Assembly: GCA_009746045.1 (NCBI GenBank)
Contig: RPFO01000041.1
Coordinates: forward strand, 3,875,954-3,939,953
Reading direction: 5' to 3'
DNA length: 64,000 nucleotides
Source: Mesostigma viride
Taxonomy: Eukaryota > Streptophyta > Mesostigmatophyceae > Mesostigmatales > Mesostigmataceae
Part shown: positions 14,485-47,475 of the stretch, one piece after another
How the letters are laid out: each line of letters begins with the position of its first letter
How positions within the stretch are numbered: position 1 is the stretch's first letter
The notes under the pieces: model-generated
The model's database searches: none
Told to the model about the DNA's origin: nothing
The model's input: the letters and a program-made list of their open reading frames with translations, nothing else
Translations under genes and position numbers: made by a program

Positions 14485-14500
14485 TAATTAATTAATTAAT

Positions 14501-19739: not shown

Positions 19740-21430
19740 GCTGTTGTCGGAATGCCAGCGCACACGTCCCCTATGGCGCAAGACAATCCAGGTACGCTCC
19801 CCATGTGTCTTTTGCGCCTTTCTGTAGTCGGGGCTGATGTCGTTGGGTCGCTAAAACACGCTACGATGCTGGAAACGTTACCCATTATGACGACCGCGAT
19901 CATTCTTGTCTTCCTGCACGCGCCTTGCCGTTTACTTTCTTGGCGCAGTTGCCGGGGCGCTCCAGGGGGGGGATGGCCCCGGGCTACCAGCGCACACGTC
20001 CCCTATGGCGCAAGACAATCCAGGTACGCTCCCCATGTGTCTTTTGCGCCTTTCTGTAGTCGGGGCTGATGTCGTTGGGTCGCTAAAACACGCTACGATG
20101 CTGGAAACGTTACCCATTATGACGACCGCGATCATTCTTGTCTTCCTGCACGCGCCTTGCCGTTTACTTTCTTGGCGCAGTTGCCGGGGCGCTCCAGGGG
20201 GGGGATGGCCCCGGCACACCCCTATTATGGCGCAAGACAATCCAGGTACGCTCCCCATGTGTCTTTTGCGCCTTTCTGTAGTCGGGGCTGATGTCGTTGG
20301 GTCGCTAAAACACGCTACGATGCTGGAAACGTTACCCATTATGACGACCGCGATCATTCTTGTCTTCCTGCACGCGCCTTGCCGTTTACTTTCTTGGCGC
20401 AGTTGCCGGGGCGCTCCAGGGGGGGATGGCCCCGGGCTACCAGCGCACACGTCCCCTATGGCGCAAGACAATCCAGGTACGCTCCCCATGTGTCTTTTGC
20501 GCCTTTCTGTAGTCGGGGCTGATGTCGTTGGGTCGCTAAAACACGCTACGATGCTGGAAACGTTACCCATTATGACGACCGCGATCATTCTTGTCTTCCT
20601 GCACGCGCCTTGCCGTTTACTTTCTTGGCGCAGTTGCCGGGGCGCTCCAGGGGGGGGATGGCCCCGGGCTACCAGCGCACACGTCCCCTATGGCGCAAGA
20701 CAATCCAGGTACGCTCCCCATGTGTCTTTTGCGCCTTTCTGTAGTCGGGGCTGATGTCGTTGGGTCGCTAAAACACGCTACGATGCTGGAAACGTTACCC
20801 ATTATGACGACCGCGATCATTCTTGTCTTCCTGCACGCGCCTTGCCGTTTACTTTCTTGGCGCAGTTGCCGGGGCGCTCCAGGGGGGGATGGCCCCGGGC
20901 TACCAGCGCACACGTCCCCTATGGCGCAAGACAATCCAGGTACGCTCCCCATGTGTCTTTTGCGCCTTTCTGTAGTCGGGGCTGATGTCGTTGGGTCGCT
21001 AAAACACGCTACGATGCTGGAAACGTTACCCATTATGACGACCGCGATCATTCTTGTCTTCCTGCACGCGCCTTGCCGTTTACTTTCTTGGCGCAGTTGC
21101 CGGGGCGCTCCAGGGGGGGATGGCCCCGGGCTACCAGCGCACACGTCCCCTATGGCGCAAGACAATCCAGGTACGCTCCCCATGTGTCTTTTGCGCCTTT
21201 CTGTAGTCGGGGCTGATGTCGTTGGGTCGCTAAAACACGCTACGATGCTGGAAACGTTACCCATTATGACGACCGCGATCATTCTTGTCTTCCTGCACGC
21301 GCCTTGCCGTTTACTTTCTTGGCGCAGTTGCCGGGGCGCTCCAGGGGGGGGATGGCCCCGGGCTGCCAGCGCACACCCCTATTATGGCGCAAGACAATCC
21401 AGGTACGCTCCCCATGTGTCTTTGACCCTA
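19740..21430 (+). repeat. 231/232-bp tandem array in Helitron copy 1
   Basis: Seven units plus a partial one. Starts of the GGCGCAAGACAATCC motif lie at 19775, 20007, 20229, 20460, 20692, 20923, 21154 and 21386, so most units are 231-232 bp and one is 222 bp. Differences are limited to the length of a G-run and small indels near the unit border. Because 231 is divisible by three, long frames stay open on both strands; they show no domain and are treated as by-products. A matching array lies at 27561-29252. Confidence 0.9.
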
Positions 21431-21619
21431 CACGCGCCCTGTTTACACACTTAACTAACAGGTGTAGGTACGCTCCCACGCCCACTAACCACGACCACGA
21501 TGTTCCCCGTGATATACTTGGTGCAGCCATGTCATGACTTACCGCTCCAATGTAATGTGCGTGCCCACAACTGAACAGTTTTTTTCTCCCTCCTATGATT
21601 TTCCTCGTATTATGTTCGT

Positions 21620-24600
21620 ATGTCTTGTGCAGCATTTGAACCCCCCGGTGAAAGGTCCTTTCAGGGTGGTAGTAGGGGGGCGTTAAGGAGTCGTGGGAGG
21701 GGGATAGGAAGGGGCGGGAGGGCACGCGGAAGACCACCGGTTAGGACTCCTAGTACCAGAGTTTCTAGAGTCACGGTCTTCACACCACAAGGAAGCCGGT
21801 CCGTGGATGTAGCGCAGGAGGACACCCCACCGTGGAACGAGACGCCAAAAAGTAAAAACAGTCGGAAGAAGGCCAATGCCAGGAAGCGCAAGAACGCTCT
21901 AGACGAATTACGGCAAAGGGGTGGTCCTTTGACCGCCGAGCTAAATGCGCTAGCACCTGCAGATAGAGAAGCAAACCGGCGGCAACGCTTGGCTGTAGAT
22001 GTGGATTATGCAAATAGGCGGGCTGAACAGCTACAGGGCGCAGAGGCCACCCGGCAAGCGCGCGCAGCGACCGATCCAGACTATGCACTTAGGCTGGCTC
22101 AGCAACAACAAACTGCAGAGGCCAACCGGCAAGCGCGCGCAGCGACCGATCCAGACTACGCACTTAGGCTGGCTCAGCAACAACAAACTGCAGAGGCCAA
22201 CCGGCAAGCGCGCGCAGCGACCGATCCAGACTACGCGCTTAGGCTGGCTCAACAACAACAAACTGCAGAGGCCAACCGACAAGAACGCATGGCTGTAGAG
22301 GTGGATTATGCAAATAGGCGGGCTGAACAGCTTCAGGGCGCAGAGGCTGCCCGACAAGAGCGCATGGCTGTAGAGGTGGATTATGCAAATAGGCGGGCTG
22401 AACAGCTACAGGGCGCAGAGGCCACCCGACAAGAGCGCATGGCTGTAGAGGTGGAGTATGCAGACCGGAGAAGACAACAGTTACGGGGATCTCAAGCAAC
22501 GTTCCAAGAGCGTATCTCTAATGATCCAGATCGTGCAGGAGAGCGGCTTGCCTCGCGTAGACATTATGAGCAGAACCGGGCAGAGCGTCGGCGTTTAGAC
22601 AACGATTATGATGAGCAGCGATCCGCGCAGCTAAAGGCTATCCAAGCTCGTGTGAAGGAACGTGCTAGTCAACCAGAATATGCTCAGCGGCGCAGGGATC
22701 AAATCGATAAGGCATCGGCCAACCGAATTGCGCTAGCCCAGTTGGCAGCCAAGCCAACAACTGATGTGCAGCGACAAAGTAATGCAGTCCGCCGAACGAG
22801 GGAAGCCTCGCTTGCGCGGGGGGATCCTCAAAAGCCGGAGCCTTGGCATTCTATTCAATGTTTCCATGAGAAGTTGGCTAGCATCCCCATCCCAGAGTGC
22901 ACTACATGTAATGAGCGGTGGCCCAATATGGTAATGGCGCGGTCTCTTGCAAACGTGTGCGATCGTTGCTCCAAGGACAAGGGAGTTGTAAAGAAATTCT
23001 CGGTGGACAACGATATGGACCCTGGGCCAATGCCGGAAGGGCTTCCCGAGCTGACCATTGTAGAGGAGGCTCTTATTTCACGGATCTCTACGTGCATGAG
23101 CATGTATAGGATGCCTCACGGGGCCATTGGCTACCGTGGCCATGTATGTAACGTGCCGCAACGGGTGGAAGAGGTTGTGGAGCAGCTTCCACGGCGGGTA
23201 GGTTCCTTGGACATCTTGGTAGTACGGAGGAAGGGGAGGGCTGGCACACACAAAGATTTCAAAGTGCGGCGTGAGGCAATCGTGAAATGGCTTGTGTGGC
23301 TACAAAAGCACAACCCGTTCTATCATGATATTCAAATTGATGCAGCGGCACTGGATGCCTTGCCTAGTGATGACTATGTTACGGAGCAGTTGCCCATCTT
23401 GGAAGAGGATGGTGCAGAGGGCAATGAGGAGCAAGGGCCTGCAGGGACTGGGGCGCGAGATGGCATTGCCGATGGGCCTTGCCCAACAATGGATGACCCC
23501 GACGCTCCGTTGCCATCCTCAGGCGCAGTAAGGGAGCCCGCACTTGCACTAGAAGCGCACACCATCCAACGCACGTTAGACGACCTCAGGGGCGAGCCTA
23601 GGCAGGACAGGCATGTGAGAAATGAGCCCATAGCATGGCCTGAGCATGGCCAAGACCCGATCAACGAGTATAATCACGAAGGTTATTTCTCAATGGCGTT
23701 CCCAACACTATTCCCCTATGGGAAACCCATCCTCGAGGGATCCGCTGAGCATCCGGCTCATCCGTGGGGTTGCGCACTACACTCTGTGCGCGTTATTACT
23801 GTTTCAATGTCCGAGTATATGCGCCATTTAATGATGTACCGCGACGGTCGCTTTGCCCAACATGCTCGCTTCCGATATGCTGCATTGAACACCGTGATGA
23901 GGTGGCAAGCAATGAGTGTATCAAAGGTATTTGTGCGTAGGAATTGCCCGAACCTCAGCTTTGAAGAACTAAAGCAACGTATCGAAGCAGGAGATGTGTC
24001 TGTTGTCAACCAACTGCTCCGCTGGGGTGGCGTCTTGCGTGGCACTCCGCAGTATTGGGCGAAAGAACGGAGCAGAGCATCCGCATTCCTTTACTTTCAC
24101 CATTTCTTTTACGACACAATGCCAACTCTATTCTACACTACCTCAGCCGCTGAGCTGCATTGGCCGCATTTGCATCGGCTGTTCCCAGACCATGGTGCAT
24201 ATTTGGGCAACGAGGGGTTGTCAGAGCAGCAACAACTCAAACTAAGGCAAGCGGCGGTCAACTCAAATCCAGCTTTATGTGCGTGGCATTTCCATCACTT
24301 CAACGAGCTTTGGCATAGCGAGGTGTTGTATGGGGCACAGGGCTGGGTTGACGATTTTGGTCGTTATGAGTTCGCACAAAACCGGGGTATGACACACTGC
24401 CACAGCCTCGGTGTGGTTCAAGGTGCGCCCACGATAACAGAAATCGAGGATATGCTAGCCATTCTAGACATGGGGCGCACTGAGGAGTATGCCACCGCAG
24501 TGCAACATGTTCTAGACTGGATAAGAGATAACATCGGGTTAACGTCGTGGCACCCCGGGTGTTGTGCCCATCATGCATGGCCGCCCCCCGACGGTGGAAA

Positions 24601-25324
24601 AAACGCACCACCCGCTGTGTGCCCCCTTAGACGGTCGTGGTTGGATATTCCAGACACCGAGGAAGACCGGGCCAAGGATTTTGAAGACTTAGTAAATCGG
24701 GTTATGATCCATAAATGCAACTCATATTGTTTAAAGTTGCAGCCCGACCGTGTCACCCGCAAATGTAGGATGGGGTACGATGGTAGTGCCGCTTTCCGGC
24801 GTGCGTGCTCGTGCGCTTCTTGTGCACCTAGACATTGTGGTGGTGCCACACGCCCACCGCATGCGCATCACGGCACGGAATGTACTGCATGTAAGGATGA
24901 AGCTGAAGAGGCTATGACATCCGGTGACAATGAGGACATGCCTGCCTGTTATTGGAGGGTGGAGAAGGACATGAGGGGGCAGTGGGTCGTTGTCCCCCCG
25001 CGCAACCACCCCAAGATGGTTATGGCGACTCCTTGGCATTTGTGTGGGTGTCGATCGAATTGTGACATGCAGTATATATGCAGTTTCCGCGCGCTGGTGA
25101 GCTATGTGCTAAAGTATCAAACCAAGGCGGAGAAAAAATCCTCCGCATTCCAATCAATGTTCCAAGACATCTTCCGCGATGTGGCGCAACGCGCCACTGC
25201 GGCGGACCGTACCCCAACCGTGCATGGCGCCCTCAACAAGGTGTTAAACATTGGGATAGGGGCAAGGGACTACAGCTCTGTGGAGACATGCCATCTGTTG
25301 CTCGTTGCTTTCGTTGCCAGTTAA
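21620..25324 (+). CDS. Helitron Rep-domain protein (HUH/Tyr), copy 1
   Basis: A 1234-codon frame starting at ATG 21620. Order: Arg/Gly-rich start; six or seven Arg/Gln-rich repeats of about 24 residues (DPDYALRLAQQQQTAEANRQ type, reminiscent of STPR-like repeats) at about residues 120-300; a Cys-rich segment CTTCNERW...CDRCSKD with PGPMPEGLPELTIVEEALI, a module often seen ahead of the Rep domain in Helitron proteins; the Helitron-like N domain with HFHHFNELWHSEV; the HUH motif MTHCHSLGVV near 24392; a Cys/His cluster; and the catalytic-tyrosine region SYVLKYQTKAE near 25100. The Rep domain nicks and joins single-stranded DNA in rolling-circle transposition. The frame ends at 25324, exactly where the helicase frame begins in another phase, so no complete RepHel is encoded. 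Confidence 0.85.
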   Translation: MSCAAFEPPGERSFQGGSRGALRSRGRGIGRGGRARGRPPVRTPSTRVSRVTVFTPQGSRSVDVAQEDTPPWNETPKSKNSRKKANARKRKNALDELRQRGGPLTAELNALAPADREANRRQRLAVDVDYANRRAEQLQGAEATRQARAATDPDYALRLAQQQQTAEANRQARAATDPDYALRLAQQQQTAEANRQARAATDPDYALRLAQQQQTAEANRQERMAVEVDYANRRAEQLQGAEAARQERMAVEVDYANRRAEQLQGAEATRQERMAVEVEYADRRRQQLRGSQATFQERISNDPDRAGERLASRRHYEQNRAERRRLDNDYDEQRSAQLKAIQARVKERASQPEYAQRRRDQIDKASANRIALAQLAAKPTTDVQRQSNAVRRTREASLARGDPQKPEPWHSIQCFHEKLASIPIPECTTCNERWPNMVMARSLANVCDRCSKDKGVVKKFSVDNDMDPGPMPEGLPELTIVEEALISRISTCMSMYRMPHGAIGYRGHVCNVPQRVEEVVEQLPRRVGSLDILVVRRKGRAGTHKDFKVRREAIVKWLVWLQKHNPFYHDIQIDAAALDALPSDDYVTEQLPILEEDGAEGNEEQGPAGTGARDGIADGPCPTMDDPDAPLPSSGAVREPALALEAHTIQRTLDDLRGEPRQDRHVRNEPIAWPEHGQDPINEYNHEGYFSMAFPTLFPYGKPILEGSAEHPAHPWGCALHSVRVITVSMSEYMRHLMMYRDGRFAQHARFRYAALNTVMRWQAMSVSKVFVRRNCPNLSFEELKQRIEAGDVSVVNQLLRWGGVLRGTPQYWAKERSRASAFLYFHHFFYDTMPTLFYTTSAAELHWPHLHRLFPDHGAYLGNEGLSEQQQLKLRQAAVNSNPALCAWHFHHFNELWHSEVLYGAQGWVDDFGRYEFAQNRGMTHCHSLGVVQGAPTITEIEDMLAILDMGRTEEYATAVQHVLDWIRDNIGLTSWHPGCCAHHAWPPPDGGKNAPPAVCPLRRSWLDIPDTEEDRAKDFEDLVNRVMIHKCNSYCLKLQPDRVTRKCRMGYDGSAAFRRACSCASCAPRHCGGATRPPHAHHGTECTACKDEAEEAMTSGDNEDMPACYWRVEKDMRGQWVVVPPRNHPKMVMATPWHLCGCRSNCDMQYICSFRALVSYVLKYQTKAEKKSSAFQSMFQDIFRDVAQRATAADRTPTVHGALNKVLNIGIGARDYSSVETCHLLLVAFVAS

Positions 25325-27020
25325 CAAAGCATTTGAGGAGTTAGAAGACGAAAAGCTGTTTGCGCTTCAGTCTAGGTGTGAGCATCTTAAGATATTAGTC
25401 ATTGATGAACGTAGCATGGTTGGTCAAGTGATGTTATCACGGGTGGACCGGCGGCTACGTCAGGCCACAGGTGTTGCAGATTTGCCATTTGGAGGTGTAA
25501 GCGTGATTCTAGTGGGGGATGATGGGCAGTTACCACCCGTGGGAGATATGCCACTATACTCCAAAAGCGTGGGCAGGCGGGCGCAAGAGGCTATCGAGGG
25601 GATAACCGCCTACCAACAGTTCAAGGACGTGGTGGAGCTCGACCGAGTGGAGCGCCAAGATGGAGACTCCCCGTTTCTGCAGGTGAGGAACAAAAAGCGA
25701 ACCTTCCTTCAAGTAACATTCAGCTTTGGTGTTTCAGTTGATCAAGTTGGCGTGACGCGATGTTTATAACATCTTCTCCTCATTTCTTGTTTATTTTCTT
25801 GTTTATCCATTTCATGTTTTACATTGCTGCAGGTGTTATTGAGGATACGGGACGGAGACATCCAGATGGCTGATTGGGAATGGCTGAAGACAAGGCAACT
25901 GCAAACGTTGCCAGCTCCTGAACAAGCTGCGTTTGCCAGCGCGACTCGCTTAATGGCCAAGGCGAGTGATGTGCGGGATTGGAACATGGACAAGATCAGA
26001 GAACTGGGGAAGCCAATTGCGCGCATCCGTGCCTTGCATAACTATGCCATTGCGGCCCAAGCTGATGCCGATGATGCCGCGGGGTTAGAGACTGAAATTT
26101 GTTTGGCAGAGGGTGCGACGGTGATGTTGCGTAGCAATTTGTGGCTAGATCACGGGTTGGTGAATGGGGCGGTAGGGGTTGTCAAGGCCATTGTATACAA
26201 TCCGGGCACAAAGCCACCCGATGTACCAGCTGCTGTACTAGTCCACTTCCCTGGATATACGGGGCCAGGGTTCAATGGGGTGCCAGGCTTGGTTGTGGTA
26301 GAGGCGTTAACGTGCCCACCGTTCATGTACAAAGGTAAGTTTTGTACCAGAACACAGCTGCCATTGTCACTTGCGTGGGCTATTACTATCCACAAGAGCC
26401 AGGGGATGACCATTGGGCCCGGGAATCCGATTGAAAGGGCGGTAGTCAATATCGGTAGCGAGGAATTTGCAGCAGGACTAACGTTTGTGGCGTTGTCTAG
26501 AGCTAAGAATCCTGAATGTTTTGCGTGGGACCCTGCCCCAGACTTTGCTAGGCTTCAGCGCATAGCAAAAGGGAAAAACTTGAAGGCAAGGAAACATGAG
26601 GAGCAAAGGTTGAGGAACATGGCAGCAGATACCAAGGTCAGGTACCGGCATTTACTACGTCAAGAACTTGCGCGACCGGTGGATGATGTAGACCCACGTA
26701 GCAATCATCAGGCAGATGACATTCAACACCAACCACACACACCCATGGATGACTCTACCTCGCAACGTCCCATGCGGTTTAGGACAGTTAATGGAGTGTG
26801 GCCTTGCAGTTATGGCACTATTGACACAACATTTGATTTTCTGTTGACCCCCCAAGCACCCACACTCACTCCTGCGGCGATGTTGGGAATGACCCCCATC
26901 GTGGGTAGGGCAAGTGGCAGTCGAGTCCCTTTGCACACACATGTTGGGCGGCCTGCAAGGGGCAGGGATGTACATTTCACGGTGAATCCAGGCGTTACTT
27001 ACGATGAAGCTCGGGCCTTG
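25305..27020 (+). pseudogene. Helitron PIF1-like helicase fragment, copy 1 (two exons, truncated)
   Basis: Exon A (25305-25682) begins LLSLPVNKAFEELED in mid-domain and contains Walker B VIDERSMVG and the GDDGQLPPVGD motif. Intron 25683-25832 has GTGAGG...CTGCAG borders and splices in phase 0 to exon B, which holds TIHKSQGMTI and FVALSRAKNPECF (motifs V and VI of SF1B helicases). The Walker A loop and about the first third of the helicase are missing: the frame is joined directly behind the Rep sequence CHLLL in a different phase. The 3' end is lost at 27020, where the next Helitron copy starts, so the last 32 codons seen in copy 2 are replaced by leader sequence to a stop at 27095. Confidence 0.85.
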
Positions 27021-27560
27021 ATCTGGCGGAGCCAATTTTCGGAAGAACCGTTAGGTTCGCCAGAATTGGCGAAGCTTATAAGGCCGTACACGTGAGAAAA
27101 CATAGGAATAGGGGATGAAAATCCGTCAATCCATCCATCCATACATACATACATCCACCGAATTTGTCCCGAATTTGCAAGCAGAAGGGGTCGGGGGTCA
27201 GGCCATGTCCCGAATTTGCACGCAGAAGGGGCCGTGGGACACAACAACAACAACAACAACAACACGGTAGCAGAAAGGTGTATAGGCTGCACGGCAGGCA
27301 ACCTAACGGATATGTACTCGGCAGTCGGCACCAGCAATGCGCCCGAAATGAAAAAATGAAAGAAATGCTCATCAGCTGCTACCTACAGTGCTGTAAGCGG
27401 AACCACAGACAAGAAATTAAAGAAATTACGGTAGCGCCCGCACCATTGTGAGATTAAACGCTATATCCCATATTCTGATACGATGCCCATGATTTGCCGG
27501 ACCAAATCCATTTCATCAATTCTAATGATGATCATGATTATGATGATCATGATTATGACC

Positions 27561-29252
27561 GCTGTTGTCGGAATGCCAGCGCACACGTCCCCTATGGCGC
27601 AAGACAATCCAGGTACGCTCCCCATGTGTCTTTTGCGCCTTTCTGTAGTCGGGGCTGATGTCGTTGGGTCGCTAAAACACGCTACGATGCTGGAAACGTT
27701 ACCCATTATGACGACCGCGATCATTCTTGTCTTCCTGCACGCGCCTTGCCGTTTACTTTCTTGGCGCAGTTGCCGGGGCGCTCCAGGGGGGGGATGGCCC
27801 CGGGCTACCAGCGCACACGTCCCCTATGGCGCAAGACAATCCAGGTACGCTCCCCATGTGTCTTTTGCGCCTTTCTGTAGTCGGGGCTGATGTCGTTGGG
27901 TCGCTAAAACACGCTACGATGCTGGAAACGTTACCCATTATGACGACCGCGATCATTCTTGTCTTCCTGCACGCGCCTTGCCGTTTACTTTCTTGGCGCA
28001 GTTGCCGGGGCGCTCCAGGGGGGGGATGGCCCCGGGCTGCCAGCGCACACCCCTATTATGGCGCAAGACAATCCAGGTACGCTCCCCATGTGTCTTTTGC
28101 GCCTTTCTGTAGTCGGGGCTGATGTCGTTGGGTCGCTAAAACACGCTACGATGCTGGAAACGTTACCCATTATGACGACCGCGATCATTCTTGTCTTCCT
28201 GCACGCGCCTTGCCGTTTACTTTCTTGGCGCAGTTGCCGGGGCGCTCCAGGGGGGGATGGCCCCGGGCTACCAGCGCACACGTCCCCTATGGCGCAAGAC
28301 AATCCAGGTACGCTCCCCATGTGTCTTTTGCGCCTTTCTGTAGTCGGGGCTGATGTCGTTGGGTCGCTAAAACACGCTACGATGCTGGAAACGTTACCCA
28401 TTATGACGACCGCGATCATTCTTGTCTTCCTGCACGCGCCTTGCCGTTTACTTTCTTGGCGCAGTTGCCGGGGCGCTCCAGGGGGGGATGGCCCCGGGCT
28501 ACCAGCGCACACGTCCCCTATGGCGCAAGACAATCCAGGTACGCTCCCCATGTGTCTTTTGCGCCTTTCTGTAGTCGGGGCTGATGTCGTTGGGTCGCTA
28601 AAACACGCTACGATGCTGGAAACGTTACCCATTATGACGACCGCGATCATTCTTGTCTTCCTGCACGCGCCTTGCCGTTTACTTTCTTGGCGCAGTTGCC
28701 GGGGCGCTCCAGGGGGGGATGGCCCCGGGCTACCAGCGCACACGTCCCCTATGGCGCAAGACAATCCAGGTACGCTCCCCATGTGTCTTTTGCGCCTTTC
28801 TGTAGTCGGGGCTGATGTCGTTGGGTCGCTAAAACACGCTACGATGCTGGAAACGTTACCCATTATGACGACCGCGATCATTCTTGTCTTCCTGCACGCG
28901 CCTTGCCGTTTACTTTCTTGGCGCAGTTGCCGGGGCGCTCCAGGGGGGGATGGCCCCGGGCTACCAGCGCACACGTCCCCTATGGCGCAAGACAATCCAG
29001 GTACGCTCCCCATGTGTCTTTTGCGCCTTTCTGTAGTCGGGGCTGATGTCGTTGGGTCGCTAAAACACGCTACGATGCTGGAAACGTTACCCATTATGAC
29101 GACCGCGATCATTCTTGTCTTCCTGCACGCGCCTTGCCGTTTACTTTCTTGGCGCAGTTGCCGGGGCGCTCCACGGGGGGGATGGCCCCGGGCTGCCAGC
29201 GCACACCCCTATTATGGCGCAAGACAATCCAGGTACGCTCCCCATGTGTCTT
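27561..29252 (+). repeat. 231/232-bp tandem array in Helitron copy 2
   Basis: Same unit and the same number of full units (seven plus partial) as in copy 1, but the shortened 222-bp unit of copy 1 is absent and the G-run lengths are distributed differently. The two arrays therefore diverged slightly after the duplication. Confidence 0.9.
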
Positions 29253-29449
29253 TGACCCTACACGCGCCCTGTTTACACACTTAACTAACAGGTGTAGGTA
29301 CGCTCCCACGCCCACTAACCACGACCACGATGTTCCCCGTGATATACTTGGTGCAGCCATGTCATGACTTACCGCTCCAATGTAATGTGCGTGCCCACAA
29401 CTGAACAGTTTTTTTCTCCCTCCTATGATTTTCCTCGTATTATGTTCGT

Positions 29450-32400
29450 ATGTCTTGTGCAGCATTTGAACCCCCCGGTGAAAGGTCCTTTCAGGGTGGT
29501 AGTAGGGGGGCGTTAAGGAGTCGTGGGAGGGGGATAGGAAGGGGCGGGAGGGCACGCGGAAGACCACCGGTTAGGACTCCTAGTACCAGAGTTTCTAGAG
29601 TCACGGTCTTCACACCACAAGGAAGCCGGTCCGTGGATGTAGCGCAGGAGGACACCCCACCGTGGAACGAGACGCCAAAAAGTAAAAACAGTCGGAAGAA
29701 GGCCAATGCCAGGAAGCGCAAGAACGCTCTAGACGAATTACGGCAAAGGGGTGGTCCTTTGACCGCCGAGCTAAATGCGCTAGCACCTGCAGATAGAGAA
29801 GCAAACCGGCGGCAACGCTTGGCTGTAGATGTGGATTATGCAAATAGGCGGGCTGAACAGCTACAGGGCGCAGAGGCCACCCGGCAAGCGCGCGCAGCGA
29901 CCGATCCAGACTATGCACTTAGGCTGGCTCAGCAACAACAAACTGCAGAGGCCAACCGGCAAGCGCGCGCAGCGACCGATCCAGACTACGCACTTAGGCT
30001 GGCTCAGCAACAACAAACTGCAGAGGCCAACCGGCAAGCGCGCGCAGCGACCGATCCAGACTACGCGCTTAGGCTGGCTCAACAACAACAAACTGCAGAG
30101 GCCAACCGACAAGAACGCATGGCTGTAGAGGTGGATTATGCAAATAGGCGGGCTGAACAGCTTCAGGGCGCAGAGGCTGCCCGACAAGAGCGCATGGCTG
30201 TAGAGGTGGATTATGCAAATAGGCGGGCTGAACAGCTACAGGGCGCAGAGGCCACCCGACAAGAGCGCATGGCTGTAGAGGTGGAGTATGCAGACCGGAG
30301 AAGACAACAGTTACGGGGATCTCAAGCAACGTTCCAAGAGCGTATCTCTAATGATCCAGATCGTGCAGGAGAGCGGCTTGCCTCGCGTAGACATTATGAG
30401 CAGAACCGGGCAGAGCGTCGGCGTTTAGACAACGATTATGATGAGCAGCGATCCGCGCAGCTAAAGGCTATCCAAGCTCGTGTGAAGGAACGTGCTAGTC
30501 AACCAGAATATGCTCAGCGGCGCAGGGATCAAATCGATAAGGCATCGGCCAACCGAATTGCGCTAGCCCAGTTGGCAGCCAAGCCAACAACTGATGTGCA
30601 GCGACAAAGTAATGCAGTCCGCCGAACGAGGGAAGCCTCGCTTGCGCGGGGGATCCTCAAAAGCCGGAGCCTTGGCATTCTATTCAATGTTTCCATGAGA
30701 AGTTGGCTAGCATCCCCATCCCAGAGTGCACTACATGTAATGAGCGGTGGCCCAATATGGTAATGGCGCGGTCTCTTGCAAACGTGTGCGATCGTTGCTC
30801 CAAGGACAAGGGAGTTGTAAAGAAATTCTCGGTGGACAACGATATGGACCCTGGGCCAATGCCGGAAGGGCTTCCCGAGCTGACCATTGTAGAGGAGGCT
30901 CTTATTTCACGGATCTCTACGTGCATGAGCATGTATAGGATGCCTCACGGGGCCATTGGCTACCGTGGCCATGTATGTAACGTGCCGCAACGGGTGGAAG
31001 AGGTTGTGGAGCAGCTTCCACGGCGGGTAGGTTCCTTGGACATCTTGGTAGTACGGAGGAAGGGGAGGGCTGGCACACACAAAGATTTCAAAGTGCGGCG
31101 TGAGGCAATCGTGAAATGGCTTGTGTGGCTACAAAAGCACAACCCGTTCTATCATGATATTCAAATTGATGCAGCGGCACTGGATGCCTTGCCTAGTGAT
31201 GACTATGTTACGGAGCAGTTGCCCATCTTGGAAGAGGATGGTGCAGAGGGCAATGAGGAGCAAGGGCCTGCAGGGACTGGGGCGCGAGATGGCATTGCCG
31301 ATGGGCCTTGCCCAACAATGGATGACCCCGACGCTCCGTTGCCATCCTCAGGCGCAGTAAGGGAGCCCGCACTTGCACTAGAAGCGCACACCATCCAACG
31401 CACGTTAGACGACCTCAGGGGCGAGCCTAGGCAGGACAGGCATGTGAGAAATGAGCCCATAGCATGGCCTGAGCATGGCCAAGACCCGATCAACGAGTAT
31501 AATCACGAAGGTTATTTCTCAATGGCGTTCCCAACACTATTCCCCTATGGGAAACCCATCCTCGAGGGATCCGCTGAGCATCCGGCTCATCCGTGGGGTT
31601 GCGCACTACACTCTGTGCGCGTTATTACTGTTTCAATGTCCGAGTATATGCGCCATTTAATGATGTACCGCGACGGTCGCTTTGCCCAACATGCTCGCTT
31701 CCGATATGCTGCATTGAACACCGTGATGAGGTGGCAAGCAATGAGTGTATCAAAGGTATTTGTGCGTAGGAATTGCCCGAACCTCAGCTTTGAAGAACTA
31801 AAGCAACGTATCGAAGCAGGAGATGTGTCTGTTGTCAACCAACTGCTCCGCTGGGGTGGCGTCTTGCGTGGCACTCCGCAGTATTGGGCGAAAGAACGGA
31901 GCAGAGCATCCGCATTCCTTTACTTTCACCATTTCTTTTACGACACAATGCCAACTCTATTCTACACTACCTCAGCCGCTGAGCTGCATTGGCCGCATTT
32001 GCATCGGCTGTTCCCAGACCATGGTGCATATTTGGGCAACGAGGGGTTGTCAGAGCAGCAACAACTCAAACTAAGGCAAGCGGCGGTCAACTCAAATCCA
32101 GCTTTATGTGCGTGGCATTTCCATCACTTCAACGAGCTTTGGCATAGCGAGGTGTTGTATGGGGCACAGGGCTGGGTTGACGATTTTGGTCGTTATGAGT
32201 TCGCACAAAACCGGGGTATGACACACTGCCACAGCCTCGGTGTGGTTCAAGGTGCGCCCACGATAACAGAAATCGAGGATATGCTAGCCATTCTAGACAT
32301 GGGGCGCACTGAGGAGTATGCCACCGCAGTGCAACATGTTCTAGACTGGATAAGAGATAACATCGGGTTAACGTCGTGGCACCCCGGGTGTTGTGCCCAT

Positions 32401-33153
32401 CATGCATGGCCGCCCCCCGACGGTGGAAAAAACGCACCACCCGCTGTGTGCCCCCTTAGACGGTCGTGGTTGGATATTCCAGACACCGAGGAAGACCGGG
32501 CCAAGGATTTTGAAGACTTAGTAAATCGGGTTATGATCCATAAATGCAACTCATATTGTTTAAAGTTGCAGCCCGACCGTGTCACCCGCAAATGTAGGAT
32601 GGGGTACGATGGTAGTGCCGCTTTCCGGCGTGCGTGCTCGTGCGCTTCTTGTGCACCTAGACATTGTGGTGGTGCCACACGCCCACCGCATGCGCATCAC
32701 GGCACGGAATGTACTGCATGTAAGGATGAAGCTGAAGAGGCTATGACATCCGGTGACAATGAGGACATGCCTGCCTGTTATTGGAGGGTGGAGAAGGACA
32801 TGAGGGGGCAGTGGGTCGTTGTCCCCCCGCGCAACCACCCCAAGATGGTTATGGCGACTCCTTGGCATTTGTGTGGGTGTCGATCGAATTGTGACATGCA
32901 GTATATATGCAGTTTCCGCGCGCTGGTGAGCTATGTGCTAAAGTATCAAACCAAGGCGGAGAAAAAATCCTCCGCATTCCAATCAATGTTCCAAGACATC
33001 TTCCGCGATGTGGCGCAACGCGCCACTGCGGCGGACCGTACCCCAACCGTGCATGGCGCCCTCAACAAGGTGTTAAACATTGGGATAGGGGCAAGGGACT
33101 ACAGCTCTGTGGAGACATGCCATCTGTTGCTCGTTGCTTTCGTTGCCAGTTAA
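29450..33153 (+). pseudogene. Helitron Rep-domain protein, copy 2 (frameshifted)
   Basis: Same protein as 21620-25324 except that a G-run of six (copy 1, near 22819) is five here (near 30650). The frame breaks after about codon 400: the first part ends at 30763 and the rest continues from about 30660 in the next phase to 33153. The HUH (HCHS) and YVLKY motifs are intact in the second part. A homopolymer length change could be real or a sequencing error. Confidence 0.85.
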
Positions 33154-35020
33154 CAAAGCATTTGAGGAGTTAGAAGACGAAAAGCTGTTTGCGCTTCAGT
33201 CTAGGTGTGAGCATCTTAAGATATTAGTCATTGATGAACGTAGCATGGTTGGTCAAGTGATGTTATCACGGGTGGACCGGCGGCTACGTCAGGCCACAGG
33301 TGTTGCAGATTTGCCATTTGGAGGTGTAAGCGTGATTCTAGTGGGGGATGATGGGCAGTTACCACCCGTGGGAGATATGCCACTATACTCCAAAAGCGTG
33401 GGCAGGCGGGCGCAAGAGGCTATCGAGGGGATAACCGCCTACCAACAGTTCAAGGACGTGGTGGAGCTCGACCGAGTGGAGCGCCAAGATGGAGACTCCC
33501 CGTTTCTGCAGGTGAGGAACAAAAAGCGAACCTTCCTTCAAGTAACATTCAGCTTTGGTGTTTCAGTTGATCAAGTTGGCGTGACGCGATGTTTATAACA
33601 TCTTCTCCTCATTTCTTGTTTATTTTCTTGTTTATCCATTTCATGTTTTACATTGCTGCAGGTGTTATTGAGGATACGGGACGGAGACATCCAGATGGCT
33701 GATTGGGAATGGCTGAAGACAAGGCAACTGCAAACGTTGCCAGCTCCTGAACAAGCTGCGTTTGCCAGCGCGACTCGCTTAATGGCCAAGGCGAGTGATG
33801 TGCGGGATTGGAACATGGACAAGATCAGAGAACTGGGGAAGCCAATTGCGCGCATCCGTGCCTTGCATAACTATGCCATTGCGGCCCAAGCTGATGCCGA
33901 TGATGCCGCGGGGTTAGAGACTGAAATTTGTTTGGCAGAGGGTGCGACGGTGATGTTGCGTAGCAATTTGTGGCTAGATCACGGGTTGGTGAATGGGGCG
34001 GTAGGGGTTGTCAAGGCCATTGTATACAATCCGGGCACAAAGCCACCCGATGTACCAGCTGCTGTACTAGTCCACTTCCCTGGATATACGGGGCCAGGGT
34101 TCAATGGGGTGCCAGGCTTGGTTGTGGTAGAGGCGTTAACGTGCCCACCGTTCATGTACAAAGGTAAGTTTTGTACCAGAACACAGCTGCCATTGTCACT
34201 TGCGTGGGCTATTACTATCCACAAGAGCCAGGGGATGACCATTGGGCCCGGGAATCCGATTGAAAGGGCGGTAGTCAATATCGGTAGCGAGGAATTTGCA
34301 GCAGGGTTAACGTTTGTGGCGTTGTCTAGAGCTAAGAATCCTGAATGTTTTGCGTGGGACCCTGCCCCAGACTTTGCTAGGCTTCAGCGCATAGCAAAAG
34401 GGAAAAACTTGAAGGCAAGGAAACATGAGGAGCAAAGGTTGAGGAACATGGCAGCAGATACCAAGGTCAGGTACCGGCATTTACTACGTCAAGAACTTGC
34501 GCGACCGGTGGATGATGTAGACCCACGTAGCAATCATCAGGCAGATGACATTCAACACCAACCACACACACCCATGGATGACTCTACCTCGCAACGTCCC
34601 ATGCGGTTTAGGACAGTTAATGGAGTGTGGCCTTGCAGTTATGGCACTATTGACACAACATTTGATTTTCTGTTGACCCCCCAAGCACCCACACTCACTC
34701 CTGCGGCGATGTTGGGAATGACCCCCATCGTGGGTAGGGCAAGTGGCAGTCGAGTCCCTTTGCACACACATGTTGGGCGGCCTGCAAGGGGCAGGGATGT
34801 ACATTTCACGGTGAATCCAGGCGTTACTTACGATGAAGCTCGGGCCTTGATACAAGCACTTGAGGTATCCGGCATTTCGTCTGTTAGGGTAGGTATCGTC
34901 CAAAGTGATGGGCAGGGTCCCTGGCGCTTCTCAGGTGCTGTTGCAGAGGGGGATTATGATCGGATGTTGTCTTACTTGGGCGAGTTGACAAGGATGATTT
35001 TTTACACTCACGTTGCTTGA
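33134..35020 (+). pseudogene. Helitron PIF1-like helicase fragment, copy 2 (complete 3' end)
   Basis: Exon A 33134-33511 and exon B 33662-35020, with the same intron borders and the same missing Walker A region as copy 1. The 3' end is complete: after the point where copy 1 is truncated it continues with QALEVSGISSVRVGIVQS and stops at 35020. The identical internal deletion in both copies shows that the deletion predates the tandem duplication. Confidence 0.85.
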
Positions 35021-42375: not shown

Positions 42376-42410
42376 TATGCGCCTGTGGGACGGTCTCAAC
42401 CACAATCTGA

Positions 42411-42560
42411 GTTGTACAAGCTAATGCTTATACTTTTTATGCGCAAACCTTTTAGCTAAGGTTAACGCATATTCTTACATCCTGCGCAGGATGTAAGAAT
42501 ATGCGTTAACCTTAGCTAAAAGGTTTGCGCATAAAAAGTATAAGCATTAGCTTGTACAAC
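42411..42560. repeat. Perfect 150-bp palindrome (intact copy)
   Basis: Arms 42411-42485 and 42486-42560 are exact reverse complements with no spacer. The sequence starts GTTGTACAAGCTAATGCTTA and is centred on CCTGC/GCAGG. A second copy of the same palindrome, split by the HUH-element array, is formed by 42808-42827 plus 47046-47175. Confidence 0.97.
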
Positions 42561-42807
42561 TTAGAACCGGCGCGGCGCGGAAGTCACGGGTTCGAAACCT
42601 CGTGGGGACAGTGCCGAGTAGGGATTATTTGGGAGGATCCGCCGGGGCACCGGTCGGACCTAATTAATCGCCTAGCGAGGTAGATATCGGACCTTCCCGG
42701 GATTGATATCGAATCAGTAATTCGATATCGAATTAGTAATTCGATGCGGAAGTAAACCCTAGTTAGGGAGCCGCTTAATATTCCGCCCCAACGCGCAAAG
42801 GTTTTAA
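42561..42807. other. 247-bp spacer between palindrome copies
   Basis: No gene. It contains GGGTTCGAAACC, which resembles a Pol III B box (tRNA T-arm), but no matching A box or cloverleaf was found. Short ATTCGATATCGAAT repeats lie at 42708-42745. Confidence 0.5.
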
Positions 42808-42827
42808 GTTGTACAAGCTAATGCTTA

Positions 42828-43405
42828 TTCATGTCCCACGTAGCTCCCACAAAAACCAGCATCTTCATTAAAACAATAAGTGGAAGCATAAATGTGACAC
42901 TATTGACATGCCCGGAGGCACGCCGTTCAAGGCCCTTCATGAAGTACGTTGCCCTAGAGGCAACCAAAACAAGGGTGGGTGGGTGGGGAGCAAAGAAAGA
43001 GGCCGACGAAACCAGCCAGAGCGGCTTTTAGTCGCAAAACCTCCCTTATCCCTAGCTAACTGACGTCATTAAACCCTTATGTTCAGTGATGCTAGTAAGA
43101 CGCTAACCGTACAGACCGGGGGTAGAATATCCCGAATCTGCACGGCTAGTATTAAATAATGCGTAGGTTGTTCTTTTCAGGGGCACTGCACCTCACGCCC
43201 CGTTCCGCCCGGGTATAATCAACCCAAGCGCGGAACGCACATTTTATTTAATTCATTTTTCAACCATGCACTATATTGCATCTACTAATCACAAAAGCTC
43301 TAGCCAAACAGCTACGAGAAAACACTACGACCTATAAGCCGCTCAACCAGCGGCCTCTTGTTCCCGCATTCACGTATAGAAGAAACTCCGTTCAAAGAAC
43401 CCCGA
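42828..43405. mobile_element. HUH element, deletion derivative (578 bp)
   Basis: It starts TTCATGTCCCACGTAGC, ends AAAGAACCCCGA and is followed directly by a second element with the same start. It consists of a 5' block (42828-42954, repeated at 43406-43532), a 34-bp remnant, a middle block (42989-43274, repeated at 44371-44656) and a 3' block (43272-43405, repeated at 46912-47045). The middle and 3' blocks are fused at a shared TAT, where the full element has 2.25 kb of coding sequence. It is thus a non-autonomous internal deletion of its neighbour. Confidence 0.9.
43338..43354 (+). promoter_or_regulatory. Subterminal hairpin of the deletion derivative
   Basis: GCCGCT-CAACC-AGCGGC, a 6-bp stem with a 5-base loop, 51 bases inside the 3' end. 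The same hairpin lies at 46978-46994 in the full element. A 3' subterminal hairpin often marks termination of rolling-circle transposition; the role here is inferred. Confidence 0.6.
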
Positions 43406-43532
43406 TTCATGTCCCACGTAGCTCCCACAAAAACCAGCATCTTCATTAAAACAATAAGTGGAAGCATAAATGTGACACTATTGACATGCCCGGAGGCACG
43501 CCGTTCAAGGCCCTTCATGAAGTACGTTGCCC

Positions 43533-44370
43533 AATCACCCCCGCCCTGGCTTTCCCTTGAAGCCGCACTCCACCTTGCTCGTTGTCACAAGTGACCGCCC
43601 TGCCGCAAAACGGGAGCCCCCCCACATCGGGAGGCGTGTGCCCGGCGGCTGTGGATGCATGGCCAGGCCCCAAAAGGCCCAGCGCATTTGCACTGCGATT
43701 GCGCACGGCCAGCCTATCATGACCCCTCTCGGGGCCCCGAGTCGGTACCGCTATGGCCGTCTCCCCATAGACCCGGGGTGCTTCGAGAAAAAACGTGGAC
43801 CTAGCCCAGGCCCCGCCAGCCCGGATGCCCGAGGCCACAGCCCCAGGCACCTGGCTGAACGAGAGTCCGTTCAGCCAAGACCGCATTCCCCCCTGAGGTT
43901 TCTATGCGTGGGGAAAAAATTTCTAGCTTAGGCGCTTTTCCCATCGCCGTCCCCAGCCCCAACCACCCCCCCCTCGGCGGAAGGCAATTGCAAAGTTTGC
44001 TGGCCAGCAGCAATTTCCGAAGAAAAAGCCTCAGGCCGCGGACCGAGACACGGGTCGCCAGTGCCAGCCATCCGGCTCCAACCCGGGGTGCAAGCATCCC
44101 CAGGTACGGAGCACCGGCTCGCGCACTGGGCCGACCGAGCGACAGTTGAGCACCTGTCACGGCACCCGGCCCACCAAAGACCCCAAGCTGGGGAAAAGGT
44201 GCGGACCGGAGGTAATCATTTTCTTTTCTTTTAGTTAACCGGGCGAGGAACTACGCCTGGCCGGTTAACAACTGGAAGTCTCACCACTGGCCAAGTGGCC
44301 GGTGCAACCAGTGCTTTTGGGATTTTGCTCCGCAGCACCCATAGCTGCGGCTGCCGCCGCAACGACAACG
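43533..44370. other. GC-rich segment inside the HUH element
   Basis: 838 bases, clearly richer in G and C than the surrounding element, with open frames on both strands (134 codons at 43527-43931 plus, 123 codons at 43515-43886 minus) but no recognisable domain. The derivative has only a 34-bp unrelated stretch at this place. It may be passenger sequence. Confidence 0.5.
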
Positions 44371-44923
44371 AGCAAATAAAGAGGCCGACAAAACCAGCCA
44401 GAGCGGCTTTTAGTCGCAAAACCTCCCTTATCCCTAGCTAACTGACGTCATTAAACCCTTATGTTCAGTGATGCTAGTAAGACGCTAACCGTACAGACCG
44501 GGGGTAGAATATCCCGAATCTGCACGGCTAGTATTAAATAATGCGTAGGTTGTTCTTTTCAGGGGCACTGCACCTCACGCCCCGTTCCGCCCGGGTATAA
44601 TCAACCCAAGCGCGGAACGCACATTTTATTTAATTCATTTTTCAACCATGCACTATTCTTCTTTTTTTTTTTTTGAGACTATATCGATGTGCACATGTCA
44701 GTTGGCTAAGCTTAGCCGCCTAGCGGCTAAGCTTAGGTAAGGTTTACGAAAATTTTCAAACTTTTCATTAAAATTATATTAAAATATTTAAGCGCGACGC
44801 ACAGACATTTTTCTACCTACAAAGTCCAGTGTGTTGTGGCGCCTCAGAAGTCATACAACAAATTCTGGCGCTGTCACAAGGTCCGGCCGGTGACGTGCAC
44901 CGGAAATGCGCGGACAATACAAA

Positions 44924-45880
44924 TTAATTTAGCACACGGACACGGCCAGGCCGTTTGGGATCATAAAAATAGACTTTCCTCACGTGATCTACTGTCTTCA
45001 TGTTTACATCATGCCCATTTAATATTAATGCTGCTGTTACCCTGCCCATGACCATGCCCTGAAGTCCATTCTTGGGTGCAACCCAGCTCTCGTGTACAAC
45101 GTAATGGCCACTGCGGTGCATGTGGAGGAGCAATTCATCGGGCTCAATGTCCTCCCACATCCGGTTGGCATTCATGTACGCCACCATCTTCTGTAAAATG
45201 TTGGATGGCGACAGGGCGACCTTGCCCTTTGACGTTGCGTGGTACTTCATGAAAATAATGCGTCCGTCTTCCATCATGGCAGGCGTGTTGCCCACGTTGA
45301 CGATGAGGCGAAAGTCAGCGGCAGGTTTGTGCGCGTCTTTGTTGCAATACCCGAGCATGCCCAGGTACGTGTGCATGTCCTTTTCTGCCAGCTCTGAAAC
45401 CATCACCTTGCTACCGGGCGGCACGTGGGGAACCCAACCCAGGGCCTCCTTCAGCGATTTAGCGACAGGTAAGGATCCGGACGTGAAGATGGTGGCGACG
45501 GCTTGGACGTGAAGCTTTCCAGCAGCAGCACCCCGCTCGCACACCGCGAAGCAGCGGCTGGCGTGTGTATCAAGCCAGTCGTGCACGACCTGCACTTGTT
45601 CATCCGTGATGTCGCTGTTGCCAGGCGGGTTTACAGTAATGCTGAAGTCGCGCCAAAGAAAAACATGGGTCGCTTTGACCTGGCGGGGTGGGATTGTTTT
45701 TTCACCGTCGACAAATTCCGGGCACGGCGCTGCTGGTTCTTCATCGTCATTGTCGGCATTGCGACGACGACGCGGGCGACGTGCAGCGGCTGCTGGAGGG
45801 TCTTGCGCTGGAACGTCGTCAGGAGGCACTGGAGGCGGAGCGTTGGCAGCAGGAACCGGGACGAGGGCAAGGGACAGGGT
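44924..45880 (-). CDS. HUH Rep endonuclease, helicase-less (CRESS-like motifs)
   Basis: A 318-codon open frame. After a Pro/Ala/Arg-rich linker (PAAAARRPRRRRNAD) come three Rep motifs in order: FSITVN (motif I), CERGAAAGKLHVQ (motif II, HUQ form of the metal-binding site, near 45511) and YLGMLGYCNK (motif III, with nucleophile Tyr near 45349 and Lys three residues later). These resemble Rep proteins of circular single-stranded DNA viruses and related transposons, which nick DNA by a covalent tyrosine link. About 140 residues follow without Walker A/B motifs, so no helicase is attached. There is no ATG ahead of the motifs in this frame. The only in-frame ATG is that of the zinc-finger ORF, separated by one TGA (45881-45883), so the protein was probably a zinc finger-Rep fusion. 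Confidence 0.8.
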   Translation of the reverse strand, partial: TLSLALVPVPAANAPPPVPPDDVPAQDPPAAAARRPRRRRNADNDDEEPAAPCPEFVDGEKTIPPRQVKATHVFLWRDFSITVNPPGNSDITDEQVQVVHDWLDTHASRCFAVCERGAAAGKLHVQAVATIFTSGSLPVAKSLKEALGWVPHVPPGSKVMVSELAEKDMHTYLGMLGYCNKDAHKPAADFRLIVNVGNTPAMMEDGRIIFMKYHATSKGKVALSPSNILQKMVAYMNANRMWEDIEPDELLLHMHRSGHYVVHESWVAPKNGLQGMVMGRVTAALILNGHDVNMKTVDHVRKVYFYDPKRPGRVRVLN

Positions 45881-46198
45881 TCACATGTTCTCTTCAAGGA
45901 TTCTGTTCGTGTGCTGCACTGTCGTGTGTCTTTTCAACCCTCGCATGGAGGAAAAGGTTTTTTTGCAATACTGACACCCCGCAGAGAAAGGTGGAGGTGC
46001 CGCATGACTTGCAGAGGTTCCGGGAGGTGCAGGACTAGCGGACGGGAGGTGCAGGACGGGAGGTGGTGTCTCCTCCCTGGGCGGGGGCGAGCCCTGGCTG
46101 ACCTCGGCGTCATCTATGAAGTCCTTGTCGCTTTGTGTTTCAGTAAACTCCTCCTCGTCTTCGCTGTCACTGCTGTGCCCCGCTTGATCATCGATCAT
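45881..46198 (-). CDS. C2H2 zinc-finger ORF upstream of and in frame with Rep
   Basis: A 105-residue ORF: an acidic start (DDQAGHSSDSEDEEEF), a Pro-rich middle, then a single finger CQYCKKTFSSMRGLKRH...H with standard C2H2 spacing, ending ILEENM and TGA. Its ATG overlaps the stop of the preceding ORF as ATGA (46195-46198). Behind the TGA the same frame continues for 318 codons through the whole HUH domain. A zinc finger fused ahead of a Rep could give DNA-site recognition. The TGA is either a nonsense mutation in this copy or a recoded stop. Confidence 0.75.
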   Translation of the reverse strand: MIDDQAGHSSDSEDEEEFTETQSDKDFIDDAEVSQGSPPPREETPPPVLHLPSASPAPPGTSASHAAPPPFSAGCQYCKKTFSSMRGLKRHTTVQHTNRILEENM

Positions 46199-46638
46199 TG
46201 TTGAAGGTAGGTTATTCCCTCCACTGCATCTATAAGCAGGGGAAGCACCTGGTAGAGCTTGTCGGCCGCCGCCAGGCGTTTGTTTTTGTGATCGTTTTCA
46301 AGTCGCTCAACCTCCTCCTGCTCCTGCTTATAACGCTTTTGAATGTTGAACCACCCTCGCCTCATCTGTAGGTTGTGCACTTCTGTGGCGATCACTTGGA
46401 TCTGCGTCTTTGTTTCTTCCACCTTTTTTTTGGCCAGGGCAATCTCCACTAGGATGCCGTCGTCATCCCGTTGTCTTTTCTTTGTGATACTTTCGAGGGC
46501 GCTCTTAGCGCACCTGCCCACATCTACCAGTGAGTCAATTTCATCTTGCGGCGTTCTAGGGGTTTGGCCCCCAAAGTCCGCCTGCGTGGCCTTGGTGGGC
46601 GTGAGGTATTGTGGGTTTTCCTCGTCGTCAGAAGACAT
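46195..46638 (-). CDS. Coiled-coil ORF of the HUH element
   Basis: Starts at ATG 46638 (MSSDDEENPQYLTPTKATQA), 147 residues. The second half is a long heptad-like helix (KKKVEETKTQIQVIATEVHN to KRYKQEQEEVERLENDHKNK) likely to form a coiled coil; Lys/Arg/Glu-rich, no signal peptide or membrane segment. Its TGA overlaps the ATG of the zinc-finger ORF by the ATGA arrangement, which suggests coupled translation or a common transcript. The open frame extends upstream of the ATG to 46965 without a methionine, so extra coding sequence from an upstream exon is possible. Function unknown; an oligomerising partner of the Rep is a guess. Confidence 0.7.
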   Translation of the reverse strand: MSSDDEENPQYLTPTKATQADFGGQTPRTPQDEIDSLVDVGRCAKSALESITKKRQRDDDGILVEIALAKKKVEETKTQIQVIATEVHNLQMRRGWFNIQKRYKQEQEEVERLENDHKNKRLAAADKLYQVLPLLIDAVEGITYLQQ

Positions 46639-46977
46639 GGTGGCTGTCGGTGCGGCCTGCGGCTGCGTCGTTTCGGTGGTCTTATCGATTTCGGGTCGTT
46701 TCCGTTGGATTTGTGACCGTTGGGGCCGAAGGCCGTTTGTTTTTCGTAGTTTGCTTATTTTTGATTGGTTGTTTATGTGTAGTATTTTGTAGTATTCTGG
46801 ACGGACGACCCAAGCCGCTAACTTAGCGGGTTTATCGCGTCCGTTGGATCCATCATCGGACGCTCCAGATTGTCGGCGGCTAACGTTTTCACTTTTTTCA
46901 TTTTGCCTTCGTATATTGCATCTACTAATCACAAAAGCTCTAGCCAAACAGCTACGAGAAAACACTACGACCTATAA

Positions 46978-46994
46978 GCCGCTCAACCAGCGGC
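46978..46994 (+). promoter_or_regulatory. Subterminal hairpin of the full HUH element
   Basis: Same 17-base hairpin as 43338-43354 and at the same distance (51 bases) from the 3' end. Confidence 0.6.
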
Positions 46995-47177
46995 CTCTTG
47001 TTCCCGCATTCACGTATAGAAGAAACTCCGTTCAAAGAACCCCGATACTTTTTATGCGCAAACCTTTTAGCTAAGGTTAACGCTTATTCTTACATCCTGC
47101 GCAGGATGTAAGAATATGCGTTAACCTTAGCTAAAAGGTTTGCGCATAAAAAGTATAAGCATTAGCTTGTACAACTA

Positions 47178-47475
47178 TCTGAGTACGTGGAACAGGTGCC
47201 CCACCTTGCCGCGTAGGTGGGACAGTCCCATCCAAAATCCGAGTACGTGGAACATGTGGCCCACCTTGCTGCGTAGGTGGAACAGTCCCATCCAAAATCT
47301 GAGTACGAGGAACAGGTGCCCCACCTTGCTGCGTAGGTGGAACAGTCCCATCCGAAATCTGAGTACGTGGAACAGGTGCCCCACCTTGCTGCGTTGAGTT
47401 GCTGCGTTGGTGGGACTGGCTCTTCCAAAATCTGAGTACGTGGAACAGGTGGCCCACCTTGCTGTGTTGGTCGGT
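47178..47475 (+). repeat. 60-bp tandem repeat, about five units
   Basis: Units contain GAGTACGTGGAACAGGTG, CCCCACCTTGCTGCG and AGGTGG(G/A)ACAGTCCCATCC. The long frames on both strands are periodic by-products because 60 is divisible by three. Confidence 0.9.

Follow-up and report, generated by a model that had tools for sequence, protein, structure and literature searches.

The window analysed here comprises 64,000 bp of Mesostigma viride DNA (assembly GCA_009746045.1, contig RPFO01000041.1, positions 3,875,954 to 3,939,953 of the forward strand) and carries a tandem of two repeat units, A and B, that had been predicted to be a deletion derivative and its parent, a helicase-less HUH transposon. 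We find instead a replitron nested in a gene-less dimer that is itself nested in a palindromic element, a reading that we hold with high confidence. What looked like a transposon with its shortened copy is one element inserted in another. The palindromic element was in place first; a dimer of ~1.96 kb, made of unit A and a second unit that we call B', then entered one of its 152-bp palindromes, and a replitron of 2,255 bp entered B'. Replitrons, reportedly described by Craig in 2023, make up the second group of HUH transposons known from eukaryotes, and to our knowledge little is known about how they move.

Three nested elements at one locus

The comparison of shared blocks bore out the architecture originally proposed for the tandem. 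Units of 578 and 3,640 bp (the second, unit B as found in the window, at 43406-47045) lie head to tail and meet exactly where CCCCGA gives way to TTCATG. They share a left-end block of 126-128 bp (100% identity), an internal block of 287 bp (99.3%) and a right-end block of 135 bp (100%), a likeness for which chance is out of the question. The predicted absence of a target duplication at the outer ends was also confirmed. When the flanks of the tandem are rejoined they match an intact palindrome 245 bp upstream at 151 of 152 positions; the dimer therefore inserted without duplicating its target.

The two 152-bp palindromes and the 245 bp between them span 42405-47181, with ATCTG at both outer edges and a 60-bp minisatellite adjoining. 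Because ATCTG bounds the pair on both sides, the palindromes probably terminate an older element, which is likely to be of the foldback type with palindromic ends.

The ends TTCATG and CCCCGA had been assigned to the transposon carrying the HUH replication (Rep) gene of unit B. This assignment did not hold, as the Rep segment is a nested insertion. A search of the genome with the 318 residues of the Rep gave 125 scored matches, the best four of which, besides the window, are 94-98% identical (L051-L054). The 4.6 kb fetched at each of these four loci include the segment inserted in the window (without its last ~170 bp in L051 and its first ~20 bp in L054) and hold none of the left, middle or right blocks of the dimer, nor the 836-bp segment that distinguishes B' from A. 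Furthermore, the insertion point is found uninterrupted elsewhere. The window reads CACTAT, the 2,255-bp segment and then TATATTGC, compared with CACTATATTGC at the empty site, so that TAT is duplicated. This empty site is present in unit A, exactly in 18 of 21 dimers sampled from the genome, and in two other loci (L043 and L049). In dimers L013, L018 and L021 the sequence CACTATATTGC is not exact, but the middle and right blocks abut. Rep copies free of dimer blocks, together with the empty site and the TAT duplication, therefore identify the Rep segment as an independent replitron inserted in unit B'.

We give almost no credence to a single 3,640-bp HUH transposon with the ends TTCATG and CCCCGA that left the 578-bp unit behind as a deletion derivative of rolling-circle transposition. 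The shared blocks, the exact junction and the HUH gene within unit B agree with such an origin. However, it is contradicted by the four near-complete Rep copies without dimer blocks, by the empty site with its 3-bp duplication, and by the sampled dimers, all 21 of which consist of A and B' and lack the Rep segment. The derivation of A from a Rep transposon was dropped in view of those four copies.

The boundaries of the replitron recur among its copies. On the coding 5' side, the sequence stops after GCCTTCG in the window, L052, L053 and L054, and TATAT follows in all of them. At the opposite boundary, a run of 10-13 T on the forward strand closes the segment in the window, L051, L052 and L053; on the coding strand this is a poly(A). 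The ATATA that lies at the 5' boundary, as the target, has a second occurrence 16-23 nt inward of the 3' end. As read from these sequences, the replitron appears to generate a 3-bp duplication and to have a poly(A)-like 3' end. Its transposase may nick the coding strand at ATATA^ in both donor and target and move the element as single-stranded DNA.

Of the 125 Rep matches, many span just residues ~264-318, mostly at 69-82% identity. They are perhaps a gene-less replitron derivative that keeps these residues and exists in many copies.

Table 1. Features of the nested locus (positions from the first base of the window).
Feature	Position	Strand	Description
Intact 152-bp perfect palindrome	42410-42561	none	Empty-site twin of the palindrome interrupted by the dimer
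Interrupted palindrome, left 21 bp	42807-42827	none	Remainder at 47046-47176
Unit A of the gene-less dimer	42828-43405	none	578 bp; left block 126, then 33, middle 287, right 135 bp
Unit B', first part	43406-44656	none	Left block, 836-bp segment absent from A, middle block
TAT, left copy of the replitron 3-bp target duplication	44654-44656	none	Right copy at 46912-46914
Replitron	44657-46911	-	2,255 bp in B'; coding 5' end CGAAGGC at 46911, 3' poly(A) (coding strand) at the 44657 side
Transposase frame	44924-46198	-	C2H2 finger, proline/alanine/arginine linker, HUH domain, C-terminal domain; in-frame TGA at 45881-45883
ORF1, 147-amino acid coiled-coil-like protein	46195-46638	-	Stop codon shares bases with the transposase start codon (ATGA)
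Unit B', second part	46912-47045	none	Right block; terminates in AACCCCGA
Interrupted palindrome, right 131 bp	47046-47176	none	

The replitron transposase and its companion gene

The 318-codon Rep frame contains all three motifs first noted in it (FSITVN, KLHVQ and YCNK), and its predicted place among the HUH endonucleases was upheld by a score of 54.3 bits for the Replitron_HUH model (PF21859; cut-off, 28.5). The same match makes it a member of the replitrons, a group that had been named as one candidate. All five other genomic Reps scanned pass this cut-off, and the tyrosine of GYCNK is invariant across seven aligned Reps. Distant Reps (24-27% identity) have the classical HUH motifs KHAHM and KHCHI and also score above the replitron cut-off. 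No helicase model matched in the open reading frames (ORFs) scanned (three, then eight), consistent with the helicase-less element originally described, and Helitron_like_N found no match in the ORFs scanned either. The inner element is a variant within the replitrons. Two Rep relatives reached E ≤ 10 among 7,996 protein-database candidates scored, both labelled Mesvir1 (Mesostigma viride). Viral contigs yielded no relatives, and a seven-Rep profile matched no solved structure at E up to 10.

The finger ORF lies in one reading frame with the Rep, a single TGA standing between them; so few stops were seen in none of 20,000 shuffles of the stretch. After the TGA, the first ATG comes only past motifs I and II, and therefore a Rep translated by itself from an ATG would be without them. 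Other copies read through this point: a frame of 424 amino acids is open in L052, L053 and L054, and L051 has 423 amino acids with the same end and another start. The TGA interruption is specific to the window copy among the window and L051-L054. The original prediction counted two accessory ORFs. The coiled-coil ORF stands as a separate gene, whereas the finger ORF was dropped as a gene of its own, being in frame with the Rep and open with it over 424 amino acids elsewhere, and is part of the transposase.

The coiled-coil gene, ORF1, keeps its full length in L052 and L054; L053 has a longer version and L051 a disrupted one. Two diverged replitrons of the same genome, with Reps 48-49% identical, also have the finger and the HUH domain in one frame. 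ORF1 relatives lie upstream of both diverged transposases (39.5% identity over 129 amino acids and 39.7% over 116), as found by an ORF1 search of the two stretches (E of 4e-25 and 2e-23). The presence of the finger and an ORF1 relative in the diverged replitrons indicates that a two-gene lineage with a finger-bearing transposase has persisted in this genome. ORF1 may assist the transposase. Four relatives of ORF1 were found in the protein database, all labelled Mesvir1. Public gene models contain ORF1 too. Four public models (P0001, P0002, P0005 and P0006) depict spliced ORF1-Rep fusions, which we rejected as joining the pieces in different frames; the open copies hold two unspliced ORFs, so splicing is not needed. 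The genome supplies near-complete replitrons with an open 424-amino acid frame, a conserved second gene and a transposase that bears a zinc finger, as well as one insertion whose empty site is known.

A dimer family without genes

The ends of the tandem were found widely in the genome, so the refuting condition set with the original prediction, a lack of further copies with these ends, does not count against the repeats. At up to two mismatches the genome has 640 copies of the inner junction, compared with 0 for a control, and TTCATGTCCC occurs at 2,088 places, compared with 1,364 for its control. Among 100 places listed of these 2,088, many are same-strand pairs ~580 bp apart. Twenty regions were fetched from this listing. 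In eighteen, two or three same-strand places are spaced by 578-587 bp; another has two places 3,619 bp apart, and the last has a single place (297082 on C1). With a further pair (346685/347265; L004/L005), loci L010-L029 form the sample of 21 dimers used throughout.

Every one of the 21 dimers has a gene-less A-type unit (~580 bp) followed by a B'-type unit composed of the left block, the 836-bp segment, the middle block and the right block, and none contains the coding segment. The B' unit without the replitron measures 1,382 bp, which is also the spacing between two pairs of listed junctions. Departures from this layout are few: L022 is A-A-B', the A unit lacks part of the left block in L011 and L029, and the B' unit is shortened in L012 and L023. 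An A-type unit stands on the left at all 23 junctions that were both listed and fetched. No two loci share an insertion point (among 40 flanks of 300 bp, matches were few, partial and at other positions), and therefore the A+B' pair inserted many times as one unit. Such a tandem is the form usually taken by a separate non-autonomous family that lacks genes and numbers several hundred copies.

Of 53 further places, 20 single ones were fetched. Sixteen had no block match, three were lone A-type monomers (L046 and L047, both diverged, and L049) and one (L043) had only part of a block, at another position of the stretch. These 20 included no lone B'. One of the other 33 places (C58) is, by the junction listing, the left end of another pair. 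Elsewhere, L002 has 66 bp of the left block and L006-L009 have no dimer blocks. The dimer-to-monomer ratio is that of the fetched sample only.

In L011 the truncated A unit is preceded by CATCCATGTACGTAG, a stretch also present after the right end at that locus (TTCCTTGACATCCATGTACGTAG). It may represent a diverged relative's left end, within a longer array whose period is 3,619 bp.

Target preference was tallied over 20 sites: the window, 17 dimers and the monomers L047 and L049. Loci with one end truncated or cut (L011, L012, L023, L029 and L046) were left out. At positions -10 to -6 of the left flank, A occupies 67 of 100 positions, compared with at most 42 in 5,000 random sets of 20 sites from the fetched stretches. 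A is at -1 in 6 sites, T at +1 in 14 and T at +2 in 18. The originally proposed insertion between A and T holds for the window itself (TA^TA), but a strict A^T target was dropped after this tally in favour of an A-rich tract followed by TT. TT is itself a preference only, since the target is AC^AT in L025 and TA^TA in the window. Flank matches of at least 2 bp join the left and right sides at 5 of the 20 sites, compared with 56 of 380 combinations of swapped flanks. Furthermore, the dimer made no duplication at the three sites with an empty version, i.e., the window, L025 and L022. For example, L025 sits in a tandem repeat with two uninterrupted neighbours that read CTGCACATGTATG, compared with CTGCAC before and ATGTATG after the dimer; the empty version of L022 also comes from a surrounding repeat.

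One insertion of the 20 (L010:590-2575) has a 5-bp flank repeat (ATCTT), a length seen in 1 of 380 swapped flanks; it is perhaps chance or perhaps a real duplication. Dimer L026 and replitron L052 lie within inverted repeats (by eye), and the window dimer lies within a palindrome. Hairpin targets may be favoured.

The dimer moves as an asymmetric pair of fixed order, prefers an A-rich tract and then TT, leaves no target duplication and keeps its end blocks alike within a copy. We propose that a rolling-circle (Helitron/Helentron-like) enzyme mobilises it in trans, reading through its inner end, and that A and B' become alike while extrachromosomal or replicating. A more specific version of this proposal has a little under an even chance: the dimer would be HINE-like, a non-autonomous Helentron or other Helitron relative moved by a helicase-bearing Rep of this genome, with the pair carried along by read-through of the inner end. 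The lack of duplication at the three empty sites and the flank-match frequencies are consistent with this, as are T at +2 in 18 of 20 sites and the short palindrome GTTCAAAGAAC, which finishes 5 nt from the right end. These traits fit the HINE description excerpted from PMC7492417 (no duplication, a TT or oligo-T preference and a 3' palindrome), and the window itself contains a head-to-tail tandem of Helitrons. On the other hand, those Helitrons have other ends, and subterminal inverted repeats, which also belong to the HINE description, were not detected at 14 bp or more between the two ends of the dimer.

Two other enzymes merit consideration. The preferred target (A-rich, C at -3, then TT) has the same layout as the joined ends AAAGAACCCCGA-TTCATG, a likeness which suggests that one enzyme may recognise both. 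A site-specific recombinase (a Crypton-like tyrosine recombinase or a serine recombinase) could act in this way through a circle recombining at its joined ends with the A-rich/TT target, and such a circle would give tandems too. Yet a circle of A+B', with its two like junctions, should also yield B'-A, and the A-type unit is on the left at every junction fetched; we regard a recombinase as unlikely. Less probable still, by a good measure, is that the replitron itself mobilises the dimer in trans. Both reside in the same genome and meet at this locus, but their ends differ, as do their targets (ATATA^ compared with A-rich..^TT), and the window replitron has a duplication where the dimer has none.

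Variation in the shared blocks is largely concerted. Of 22 comparisons of left blocks within loci, 21 found no difference, but between loci the mean is 1.25 differing positions. Right blocks differ by 0.26 positions within loci and 1.97 between. Seven variants occur in at least two loci (one edge column set aside) and six of them are in both units at every locus that carries them; three of the six mark the same six loci and are not independent. The remaining differences between units each belong to one locus, and some such private variants are in both units. The window, for example, has one private variant in the left block and one in the right block, each common to both units. This concordance suggests that the units were mostly made alike before or during transposition and drifted apart later, as the long terminal repeats (LTRs) of retroelements do. 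Its plain reading would be gene conversion within an intermediate that is circular or replicating. More speculatively, and in our view improbably, the dimer may be re-made from a single template at each transposition, with the common blocks of A and B' deriving from one parent strand. If so, LTR-like twin repeats would arise without reverse transcriptase, through a replication cycle new for a rolling-circle-type element in which the inner junction is a working origin/terminator. In any case, the outer dimer (640 junctions, unequal units and co-varying end blocks) offers a testable case of how uniformity arises in tandem rolling-circle-like elements.

Several observations weigh against the nested reading and the mobilisation proposed with it. 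Middle blocks differ by 1.25 positions within loci and 2.23 between, and the seventh variant, which lacks one base of a G run, does not agree between the units of two loci, being in one unit of L017 and in two of the three in L022. Assembly polishing could mimic part of the block likeness. An autonomous element sharing the ends of the dimer was not found, though not exhaustively sought, which also counts against the HINE-like origin. None of the fetched loci is a second dimer with a replitron inside, and none was sought further. As to the replitron, a target duplication was not evident in L052 and L053, where there is no empty-site sequence for comparison. The C-terminal model (Replitron_C, PF21860) aligned at 227-283 with 15.3 bits, under its cut-off of 27. 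Finger models also stayed below theirs (best 20.0, cut-off 27), although the pattern C-x2-C-x12-H-x4-H is plain. The structure model of the Rep, built from three sequences, had a mean predicted local distance difference test (pLDDT) score of 38.

The Helitron tandem lies at 18894-34851. Its two elements (DUF6570, Helitron_like_N) are 99.8% identical over 7.6 kb and join head to tail as GGGCCTTGA followed by TCTGGCGG. The left flank ends in TTTA and the right flank begins with TACAAG, i.e., insertion at A^T without duplication. Elsewhere in the window, 14001-16000 combines an extreme GC skew (0.78) with long ORFs that overlap on both strands, a pattern like that of a G-rich repeat.

Comparison with known systems

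The Rep proteins of circular Rep-encoding single-stranded (CRESS) DNA viruses have motifs of the type FTLNN, HLQ and YCxK. The replitron Rep shares this motif type, as the original prediction had remarked, but no viral Rep or superfamily 3 (SF3) helicase model of Pfam matched at E up to 1.

The inner element agrees with the replitrons in its replitron-model HUH domain, its one catalytic-type tyrosine (GYCNK) and the absence of a detected helicase. Replitrons are described as 0.9-4 kb long with target duplications of 2-8 bp in the text excerpted from PMC10741241, ranges that accommodate the 2.26 kb and the 3-bp duplication of the window copy. Compared with that description, the element differs in the N-terminal C2H2-type finger of its transposase, the conserved coiled-coil gene and the poly(A)-like 3' end. 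Furthermore, the two occurrences of ATATA aside, a clear terminal direct repeat of 5-11 bp is not seen here.

The dimer resembles the HINEs (non-autonomous Helentrons), as portrayed in the excerpted PMC7492417, in being gene-less and high in copy number, in inserting without duplication at TT/oligo-T targets and in having a palindrome at one end. It differs in its unequal units, their fixed order and its largely concerted blocks, as well as in having no detected subterminal inverted repeats (at least 14 bp) and no autonomous partner found. Head-to-tail junctions of whole Helitrons are reported for plants and bats in the available text of PMC5876387, and the dimer has junctions of this kind. 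Unlike chance concatemers, however, it keeps the A-B' order at each of 21 independent insertions examined.

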